Shown here piece after piece: positions 11,545 through 14,748 of a stretch of DNA of 36,271 nt (position 1 is its first letter; every line of letters begins with the position of its first letter). The notes beneath the pieces were generated by a model. That model was not told the origin of the DNA and made no database searches. It was given only the letters and a program-made list of their open reading frames with translations. Origin of the DNA: Bacteroidia bacterium. GTDB taxonomy: Bacteria; Bacteroidota; Bacteroidia; Bacteroidales; VadinHA17. The position numbers and the translations under genes are program-made. The stretch is taken from the NCBI GenBank assembly GCA_026391475.1, contig JAPLED010000080.1, positions 1 through 36,271 on the forward strand, read 5' to 3'.

Positions 11545-13485
11545 ATGATAAAGATAACTTTTCCTGACGGAACTGCAAGAGAATATAAAAATGGAATCAG
11601 CAGTCTCGAAATCGCAGAACAGATTAGTCCGCGGTTGGCAAAAGAAGTATATGCTGCCACTGTAAATGGTGAGATCAGGGATCTTACAAGACCTATTGAC
11701 CATGATGCCACACTTAAACTTCATAAGTGGGAAGATGAAGCTGCAAAGCATGCATTCTGGCATTCTTCAGCCCACCTTATGGCAGAAGCTCTGGAATCTT
11801 TATATCCGGGTATGAAATTTGGCATTGGTCCTGCTATTGAGAATGGTTTCTACTATGATGTTGATCCAGGTGATGAAAGGGTGATTACAGAAGCTGATCT
11901 TCAGACTATTGAGAACAGGATGAAAGAGCTTGCAGCTAAAAACCTCACTTTCAGTAGAAGAGAAGTTAGCAAGAAGGAAGCTCTCTATATTTTTAAAAAG
12001 AAAAGTGATGAATACAAGACTGAGCTTATAAGCGAACTTGCTGACGGAACAATAACATTATATACACAGGGCAATTTTACCGATCTCTGCAGGGGGCCAC
12101 ATCTTCCTTCAACTGAACCGTTAAAAGCCATCAAGCTGTTAAGTGTTGCCGGAGCCTATTGGCGTGGGAATGAGAAACGCAAGATGTTAACAAGGATTTA
12201 TGGTATCACTTTTCCAAAACAAAAACTCCTTGACGATTACCTGGTTTTTCTTGAAGAGGCAAAAAGAAGGGATCACCGGAGAATTGGTAAGGAACTTGAA
12301 CTATTTACCTTCTCACAAAAAGTCGGAATGGGACTTCCATTATGGCTGCCAAAAGGGTCAGATATACGACAGAATTTAATCAATTTCCTGACCGGTGTAC
12401 TCAGGAAAAGAGGGTATAAAATTGTAACTACCCCGCATATCGGAAACGTGAATTTATACAAGACTTCAGGCCATTTCGAAAAATATGGTGCCGATTCCTT
12501 TCAACCGATTTCAACTCCGCAGGAAGGCGAACAGTTTATGCTCAAACCCATGAACTGCCCGCACCACTGCGAGATTTACAATGCTACCCCCCACTCCTAT
12601 AAAGATATGCCACTCCGAATGGCGGAATTTGGAACAGTGTACAGGTATGAACAGAGTGGTGAGTTACATGGACTTACCAGGGTCAGAAGTTTCACCCAGG
12701 ACGATGCTCATCACTTTTGCAGACCCGACCAGCTTAGAGAAGAGTTTAAAAGTATTATCGACCTGATATTATACATATTTAAGATCCTTAATTTCAATGA
12801 TTTTACTGCCCAGATTTCGTTACGTGACCCAAATAACAAGCAGAAGTATATCGGATCAGATGAAAACTGGGAAAGAGCGGAACGCGAAATTATTGAAGCC
12901 GCCGCAGAGAAAAACCTTGAGACGACAGTAGTTACCGGAGAGGCTGCATTCTATGGCCCAAAACTCGATTTTATGGTAAAAGATGCCATCGGAAGAAAAT
13001 GGCAATTAGGTACAATCCAGGTTGACTACAACCTTCCAGAGAGGTTCGATCTTACATACAACGGCAGCGATAACCAGAAGCACAGACCGGTTATGATCCA
13101 CAGGACAATTTTCGGATCGTTGGAACGGTTTGTTGCAGTTCTGATCGAAAATACCGCAGGAAAATTTCCACTCTGGCTTGCACCGGAAAAAGCAGTCATC
13201 TTGCCAATAAGTGAAAAATTCAATGATTATGCGGGAAAAGTTTTGGAAATTCTAAATAATTCCGATATTTGCACACTGATTGACGAGAGAAGTGAAAAGA
13301 TAGGTAAGAAGATCAGGGATAATGAATTAAAGAGGATTCCTTACCTTCTTATAATAGGCGAAAAAGAGGTTGAAAACGAAACAATCGCTGTCCGGAAGCA
13401 GGGTGAGGGTGATAAAGGGAGCATGAAAATTGAAGAATTTGTGAGTTTTATTAACTCTGAGATCAAAAAAGAAATTGCATTTTAA
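11545..13485 (+). CDS. thrS: Threonyl-tRNA synthetase
   Basis: A 646-residue class II synthetase that charges tRNA-Thr, full-length for the family. In order: TGS domain (about 1-62); the editing domain with HSSAH (73-77) and [10 protein letters not shown], which hydrolyses Ser-tRNA-Thr; the catalytic core with zinc ligands Cys338 (MNCPHH), His389 (DDAHHF) and His519 (VMIHRTIFG); motif 3 around GSLERF; and an anticodon-binding domain from about 545 to the end. All metal and editing residues are present. It is the first gene of thrS-infC-rpmI-rplT, an arrangement conserved widely in bacteria, with infC 48 bp downstream. Confidence 0.98.
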
Positions 13486-13518
13486 TGCACGATAAGTAAT
13501 TCTAGTATTAACAAAAAT

Positions 13519-13525
13519 AAGGAGG
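13519..13525 (+). promoter_or_regulatory. Strong Shine-Dalgarno that fixes the infC AUA start
   Basis: AAGGAGG lies 8 bp before the ATA at 13534. Shine-Dalgarno sites are rare in this window, as in Bacteroidota generally, so a near-perfect one here is notable. The next downstream candidate starts (ATT 13588, ATC 13600, GTG 13612) are too far from it. Confidence 0.8.
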
Positions 13526-13533
13526 AAAGAGCT

Positions 13534-14082
13534 ATAGCTTTACCAATAAGGCGAAGCCCGGCAAGGGTTACCCAGCCGGCTCACAAAATTAATCACAGGA
13601 TCGCTGCAAAAGTGGTCAGAGTAGTCGGTGAAGAAATAGAAGCGGAAGTAATGAGTATCCAGGATGCTCTGAAGCTGGCCGACAATCTCGAACTCGATCT
13701 TGTTGAAATTTCTCCCAATGCGGATCCCCCTGTTTGTAGAATTGTTGATTATCAGAAGTTTCTTTATCAGCAGAAAAAAAAGCAGAAAGAGATGAAGGCC
13801 AAAACATCAAAGGTTGTGGTGAAGGAGATAAGATTTGGCCCAAATACTGATGATCATGATTATAATTTTAAGCTTAAACATGCAATGAGGTTCCTCGAAG
13901 AGGGAGCAAAAGTCAGAGCTTATGTGTTCTTTAAAGGAAGATCTATTTTATTCAAGGAACAGGGTGAAGTATTGTTATTACGCTTTGCCAACGACCTTGA
14001 AGAATACGGGAAAGTAGAACAACTTCCAAGACTTGAAGGGAAACGGATGATAGTATCCTTTTCGCCGAAAAAGAAAAAATAG
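13534..14082 (+). CDS. infC: Translation initiation factor IF-3, AUA start codon
   Basis: With the ATA at 13534 as start this is 182 residues, the normal IF-3 length. A start at the GTG 13612 would remove 26 residues, including the conserved N-terminal PAHKINHRI segment that precedes the N-domain. The N-domain holds [20 protein letters not shown] and [20 protein letters not shown]; a Lys-rich linker ([14 protein letters not shown]) leads to the C-domain with [20 protein letters not shown] and FFKGR. IF-3 binds the 30S subunit, blocks premature 50S joining and rejects non-canonical start codons, so its own non-AUG start allows autoregulation, as known for E. coli infC (AUU). The codon is preceded by AAGGAGG. 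rpmI follows 26 bp downstream. Confidence 0.92.
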
Positions 14083-14108
14083 TTTTTTAATATATTTGAT
14101 AGAGAGAA

Positions 14109-14306
14109 ATGCCAAAAATGAAGACTAATCCCGGTGCAAAGAAAAGATTTTCTCTGACCGGAACAGGAAAGATCAAGCGTAGACATGCATTTAAAAGCCA
14201 TATCCTGACAAAAAAAGCAACCAAACGTAAGAGAAATCTTACCTATGGAACTCTGGTTCACAAAACAGATCTTAAAAACGTCAAGCTGTTGCTCGCAATG
14301 AAATAA
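14109..14306 (+). CDS. rpmI: 50S ribosomal protein bL35
   Basis: A 65-residue, very basic protein starting [14 protein letters not shown], with the [19 protein letters not shown] core typical of bL35 of the large subunit. It has full family length. It lies between infC and rplT as in most bacteria. The 97-bp gap to rplT is larger than the others in the operon and contains a small GTCTT/AAGAC hairpin; L20 is known to repress this operon in E. coli and Bacillus by binding leader RNA, but no convincing L20 target can be picked out by eye. Confidence 0.97.
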
Positions 14307-14403
14307 TTGTTAAACGCATTGATAAAATTAATTATAGTATTAACAGATTGTTCAGCAATTAAGAGTCTTTTATAAGACCGCTGACATTCAAAAAAGATGA
14401 GTT

Positions 14404-14748
14404 ATGCCAAGATCAGTAAATGCAGTTGCTTCAAGGGCCAGAAGAAAAAAGGTTCTTAAGCAGACAAAAGGAAACTTCGGATCACGAAGAAATGTAATAA
14501 CAGTTGCAAAGAATACCCTCGACAAAGGATTAGGGTATGCATACCGCGACAGGAAAAAGAAGAAAGGCCTGTTCAGGGCTTTATGGATTCAAAGGATTAA
14601 TGCAGGTGTACGTCAGTACGATATGAGCTATTCTGAATTTATCGGGAAAGTTGCTTTAAAGGGAATCACCCTAAACAGAAAAACCCTTGCCGACCTGGCA
14701 ATGAACCACCCTGAAGCTTTTAAAGCAATCGTAGAAAAAGTTAAATAA
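14404..14748 (+). CDS. rplT: 50S ribosomal protein bL20
   Basis: A 114-residue basic protein, full-length. [20 protein letters not shown] opens the long N-terminal helix that threads into 23S rRNA, and the C-terminal globular part has [20 protein letters not shown] and [13 protein letters not shown]. bL20 is needed for early 50S assembly. It is the last gene of the operon and is followed 22 bp later by a strong terminator. Confidence 0.98.

Follow-up and report, generated by a model that had tools for sequence, protein, structure and literature searches.

infC of a Bacteroidota bacterium very probably begins at an AUA codon behind a strong Shine-Dalgarno sequence

Introduction

Translation initiation factor IF3 represses starts at codons other than ATG, GTG and TTG and autoregulates its own gene, infC, which begins with ATT in E. 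coli and with ATC in Streptomyces, as described in the cited passages of PMC5472188. In S. aureus, infC has an AUA start that was seen by retapamulin profiling and is accompanied by a predicted extended Shine-Dalgarno (SD) sequence; autoregulation of this gene is thought likely by the authors (PMC13009471, cited in part). The same passages report that the AUU or AUA starts of S. aureus cvfC1, ccpN and citZ yield about 10% of the expression obtained with AUG when the medium is poor, and that ccpN reaches up to 30% of the AUG level in rich medium. Non-AUG infC starts and IF3 autocontrol are already known from these other bacteria.

Ribosomes of Bacteroidia sequester the anti-SD, a constraint that rpsU overcomes with 9-13 bp of pairing, and in F. 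johnsoniae rpsU alone has an obvious SD (PMC9976891, cited in part). Autocontrol of rpsU acts through ribosomes lacking bS21, a point of difference from infC (same passages of PMC9976891). Among the titles and abstract openings that full-text searches listed, none dealt with the start codon of infC, or with an SD of this gene, in Bacteroidota; by term counts, "infC" is absent from the main texts of PMC9976891, PMC6847099, PMC8710568 and PMC3155529. In the literature searched, neither the combination of a non-AUG infC start and an SD in a class blind to SDs nor an AUA form that lacks the SD was found, and both are apparently new.

The infC gene considered here lies in a stretch of 36,271 nt from a Bacteroidia bacterium (GCA_026391475.1, contig JAPLED010000080.1), hereafter the window. 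It shares with E. coli infC the identity of the gene, an AUH start and a product that is the very factor rejecting such starts; it differs in using AUA rather than AUU, in coming from a class in which SDs usually go unused by the ribosome, and in that feedback is here a property that we infer. The gene order thrS-infC-rpmI-rplT, which we take to be that of E. coli, is also the neighborhood of infC in the window. An AUA start with a strong SD is common to the window and S. aureus infC; however, S. aureus is reported to rely generally on extended SDs, whereas SDs are rare in the window genome and infC is among their few carriers (PMC13009471, in the part cited, for S. aureus). Like rpsU and rpsR of Bacteroidia (PMC9976891, in the part cited), the window infC serves translation and has a strong SD in a class where few genes do, but the rpsR of its own genome pairs the SD with ATG, while infC pairs it with AUA.

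The infC start region

The infC frame is open from just past the thrS stop to its own stop at 14080-14082, and it contains no ATG, GTG or TTG from the thrS stop up to a GTG that falls inside the IF3 N-terminal domain (Table 1). The ATA-started product scores 190.5 bits against TIGR00168 (infC; cut-off 60) and covers positions 1-70 of 70 of the PF05198 profile and 1-86 of 86 of PF00707; with both IF3 domains present and the family cut-off passed, it is a member of the IF-3 (infC) family. Its top solved-structure match is 8jsg_A, an IF-3 chain (E 3.6e-42). A frame that lacks canonical codons before the N-terminal domain, together with an AUH codon conserved in the genus, places this gene among infC genes with a probable non-canonical start. 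On this sequence evidence, infC very probably begins at AUA behind a strong SD, as the original prediction had proposed.

Table 1. Features of the infC region in the window; the names thrS, rpmI and rplT are those that we presume for the neighboring open reading frames (ORFs)
Feature	Position	Strand	Basis or remark
thrS, gene upstream of infC	11545..13485	+	ORF; stop 13483-13485 in frame with infC
TAGTATTAAC box, about 30 nt before infC start	13503..13512	+	AGTnTTAAY conservation
SD, AAGGAGG	13519..13525	+	7 nt complementary to own 16S 3' tail (ACACCTCCTTTCT)
infC AUA start codon	13534..13536	+	8 nt downstream of SD
infC, translation initiation factor IF-3	13534..14082	+	182 aa plus stop; profile matches
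GTG, first canonical codon of infC frame, rejected as start	13612..13614	+	ORF list
rpmI (bL35), gene downstream of infC	14109..14306	+	ORF
rplT (bL20), gene downstream of infC	14404..14748	+	ORF

Counts in the own genome are 54 for the combination AAGGAGG-N6-9-ATA and 58 for a reversed control pattern; since the string alone is at chance level, it is gene context and conservation that make it real. Further AUA-started genes with an SD, which could form an IF3 regulon, were sought by the same pattern and the idea was dropped, the strings being at chance genome-wide. A leader hairpin controlling infC was likewise rejected, as the folding of 13486-13580 is not better than that of shuffles (z -0.71). 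Across 13400-14460, no Rfam family reaches its gathering score, the five matches obtained (E up to 5) being far below it.

Conservation within the genus

Sixty genomes were searched, 36 of them from the genus of the window (its own included), and 34 of these 36 gave an infC match. The analysis covered 30 of the 34 loci, one of them that of the window, with G003, G006, G009 and G024 left out; removal of L041, which runs off the contig end, and of L034, which has an N in the region, left 28 usable loci. The AAGGAGG and the ATA 8 nt beyond it, as originally described, are confirmed, and their arrangement is kept throughout: in 28/28 loci an AUH codon (25 ATA, 3 ATT) lies 7-8 nt after an SD match of 5-7 nt. 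In L033, the automatic pick was an ATT at spacing 5, which is followed by an ATA at spacing 8. ATG, GTG and TTG are absent between AUH and the conserved Asn in 25 of the 28, and a TTG occurs there in L005, L023 and L044; in L005 and L023 it stands only two codons past AUH, and in L005 AGGAG also precedes it. In 16/28 loci, the five codons that precede the start include an in-frame stop at the SD, mostly as TAGGAGG, so that the start there must be downstream.

Substitution patterns change at the same point. Mean entropy by codon position (26 rows) is flat upstream (1.03/1.02/0.98) and periodic after AUH (0.47/0.50/0.93), and the third position is the most variable in 11/18 extension codons and 36/41 core codons, compared with 2/12 upstream triplets (27 same-genus rows). 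Furthermore, ATA makes up 25/28 starts but 98/293 of the remaining Ile codons in these genes (Fisher p 7.6e-9, an optimistic value because the rows are related), an excess that speaks for its selection as a start codon.

SD use in the own genome

The original prediction further held that SDs are rare in such genomes, with rpsU a known exception, and that infC may be another gene using this route. Among 220 control ORFs, each of at least 150 aa and taken from 362 kb of the own genome (window included), an SD of at least 7 nt precedes any in-frame ATG, GTG or TTG of the first part in two, and one of at least 6 nt in five. The own 16S 3' end is GGAACACCTCCTTTCT, which contains CCTCC, so the anti-SD is present. 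Given this rarity and the CCTCC in the 16S tail, infC is a credible further SD-using gene. With a 7-nt SD at 8-nt spacing, of a kind rare elsewhere in the genome, it resembles in this respect the rpsU/rpsR type of SD gene; its 7 contiguous pairs fall short of the extended pairing of 9-13 bp seen in rpsU.

The example of rpsU does not hold for this genome. In the own-genome loci read (L273, L272), no SD is visible before the likely ATG of rpsU, and it is rpsR that carries one, with AAGGAGG 8 nt upstream of its ATG. This agrees with the order-level pattern for Bacteroidales quoted in PMC9976891, in the part cited. The earlier proposal is well supported by sequence for the AUA start and the SD, gives way on rpsU, and leans on other bacteria for IF3 autoregulation.

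The wider Bacteroidota sample

A wider sample of 251 infC loci, window included, was assembled from best-scoring loci (the best 30 of 384, 30 of 290 and 80 of 570 matches) and 60 hand-picked regions, and is not a random draw. Two loci running off, duplicates by upstream sequence and one row with N were taken out, which left 245. By rule-based classification, 92 of these have AUH with an SD and no canonical codon before Asn, 27 have AUH with an SD and canonical codons only downstream of AUH, 14 have AUH with an SD and other canonical codons, 29 have neither SD nor canonical codon, 81 are canonical without an SD (some with a possible AUH further upstream), and 2 are canonical with one. The resulting contrast (133 versus 2) exaggerates how closely SD and AUH go together, since under this rule one of many AUH codons is picked by means of the SD. 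Among the loci with AUA and an SD is that of the cultured Geofilum rubicundum (L137).

The SD was also sought independently of the codon, in 274 loci (the 245 and 29 more of a family designated f31): 155 have no canonical codon before the conserved Asn, ATG is the start in 73, and the other 46, being ambiguous, were set aside. An SD of at least 6 nt occurs in 68/155 non-canonical loci (5.3 expected) versus 6/73 ATG loci, counts that come from unequal search stretches, long for the former and only 19 nt before each ATG for the latter. Over a fixed 100-nt stretch in the 245-locus set, the numbers are 73/126 non-canonical loci (8.8 expected) and 18/73 ATG loci (5.2 expected); the latter is above chance too, and the contrast is smaller once both groups are searched over the same length. 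Expected numbers derive from single-base shuffles, 50 per locus. As 87/155 of the forced non-canonical loci have no SD of at least 6 nt in the stretch searched, such a site is not a strict requirement. An infC tree made with FastTree, with both traits available for 227 rows, shows at least 11 changes of start type and at least 30 of the SD. Correction for the tree leaves four supported independent pairs, on average 2.1 in the expected direction, 0.0 in the opposite one and 1.9 without difference; with so few well-supported pairs, the SD-AUH association is unproven, its direction being right and the comparison underpowered and not significant.

Relatives that carry ATG with no SD, named in the original prediction as evidence that would count against it, do occur among some more distant relatives, and not in the genus. 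Departures from AUH with an SD include loci of Bacteroides, Phocaeicola and Prevotella, in which infC starts with ATG, and the f31 loci, which lack the SD.

Two further arrangements were observed. In four loci of family f109 (L164, L168, L169 and L174), AAAGGAGGT or AGGAGGT is followed at 5 nt, a closer spacing than in the window, by an in-frame ATT or ATC, and the second codon is TTA instead of one for Ala. In L043 (G041, family f7), TTGGAGGAAAG is present and AUH is absent in frame at the usual spacing, where AAA TTT stands; this locus may have an unusual or a TTG start, or be misassembled.

A possible AUA start without an SD in family f31

Family f31 is probably Flavobacteriaceae, judging from its resemblance to L154 and L161, two loci whose records are named as Flavobacteriaceae. 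Sixty genomes were searched, all 60 matched, and the best 30 of the 60 loci were read; each of these 30 has ATA-GCN and no canonical codon before Asn, and SD-like matches occur in three, always downstream of the ATA. Adding six earlier loci and subtracting one duplicate gives a set of 35, anchored on the GC after AUH. The presumed start codon is ATA in 34/35 and ATC in one, no canonical codon lies between AUH and the conserved Asn in any of the 35, and an SD of even 4 nt is absent from the 30 nt before AUH in all of them. An in-frame stop lies one to seven codons upstream of AUH in 31/35. ATA accounts for 34/35 starts versus 85/374 other Ile codons (p 3.5e-19, optimistic for the reason given above). 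C is found at -1 in 30/35 and G at -3 in 29/35.

This related family thus appears, from its sequences, to keep the AUA start of infC without an SD, in agreement with the obvious SD of F. johnsoniae being confined to rpsU (PMC9976891, in the part cited). It is somewhat more likely than not that translation of f31 infC begins at AUA without an SD, through a conserved sequence context and on ribosomes whose anti-SD is hidden. In this context, position -3 is mostly G and position -1 mostly C, the AUA is followed by GCA-AT, and an AGTTTAAY box stands about 23 nt upstream. If this is true, IF3 autocontrol via a non-AUG codon would work without mRNA-rRNA pairing, and the SD of the window lineage would be one of two ways of starting at AUA.

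Proposed mechanism and alternative explanations

The likely explanation for the window is that infC is translated from the AUA at 13534, that a functional SD assists this start, and that IF3 exerts feedback. Sequence supports the start codon and the SD as well as the conservation of both; base pairing of the SD with 16S on the ribosomes of these Bacteroidia is something we infer, and the feedback of IF3 on its own gene is proposed by analogy. The strong SD would set AUA in the P site and compensate for its poor fit with the anticodon of the initiator tRNA. Since IF3 rejects initiation complexes at any codon but AUG, GUG and UUG, rising IF3 would lower infC translation, as in E. coli, and the arrangement may in this way let the factor limit its own production. 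The seven SD pairs may act weakly, given the sequestered anti-SD in Bacteroidia and the 9-13 bp of rpsU.

It is most improbable that translation starts at the GTG at 13612 or another internal canonical codon, with the preceding stretch serving as an untranslated leader. No ATG, GTG or TTG of the frame precedes this GTG, and its shorter product remains above the family cut-offs (178.1 bits), but that product has lost IF3_N profile positions 1-9, in line with the original claim that the conserved N-terminus needs a start further upstream. The alignment with 8jsg_A begins at query residue 14, ahead of the GTG (residue 27), the codon periodicity across the 18 codons after AUA argues against a start there, and the absence of canonical codons from the corresponding stretch of f31 speaks against an internal canonical start. 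Expression of infC by thrS read-through (the in-frame stop lies 48 nt upstream) or by re-initiation, with no independent start, is very improbable: thrS and infC are adjacent and the window frame is open from the thrS stop, yet the in-frame stops at the SD exclude a thrS-infC fusion in 16/28 same-genus loci, and the stretch upstream of AUA shows no codon periodicity. Re-initiation after thrS at this same AUA is compatible with the SD-assisted AUA start preferred here.

A further, rather unlikely explanation accepts the AUA start as real and holds that it merely keeps IF3 low through weak initiation, with no IF3 feedback. The roughly tenfold lower expression from S. aureus AUU/AUA starts mentioned above (PMC13009471, in the part cited) would suit such a role, and the repeated changes of start type on the infC tree imply that feedback would be dispensable in some lineages. 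Against it, the gene using AUA is that of IF3 itself, and infC of E. coli and Streptomyces is described as autoregulated in the cited passages of PMC5472188.

Implications

SD screens in Bacteroidia that rest on annotated ATG, GTG or TTG starts could miss infC, so the list of SD genes may be incomplete. In addition, many Bacteroidota genomes may carry an IF-3 annotated with the wrong N-terminus. The natural variation among relatives, which includes AUH with an SD, AUH without one, and AUG mostly without one, offers a test of the interplay between IF3, start codon and anti-SD sequestration.

The AGTnTTAAY box and the region before rplT

AGTnTTAAY occurs within 60 nt upstream of infC in 21/28 same-genus loci (0.45 expected by shuffling) and in 26/35 f31 loci (0.56 expected). 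In the window, TAGTATTAAC with up to one mismatch was found twice versus 2.75 expected and is not above chance; it precedes both infC (13503-13512) and rplT (14335-14344). Four copies of TAGTATTAACWRA are present in the genome, two of them in the infC operon, as against three of the reversed pattern. No Rfam match was obtained for the element at 14335-14403, which precedes the rplT ATG and which we guess to be a bL20 leader. This element is conserved in the genus, with AGTnTTAAY in 20/27 loci versus 11/95 in other lineages, and in the hairpin-like stretch that follows the box, the four base pairs given by RNAalifold are kept in 26-27 of 27 loci, and a few paired changes occur.
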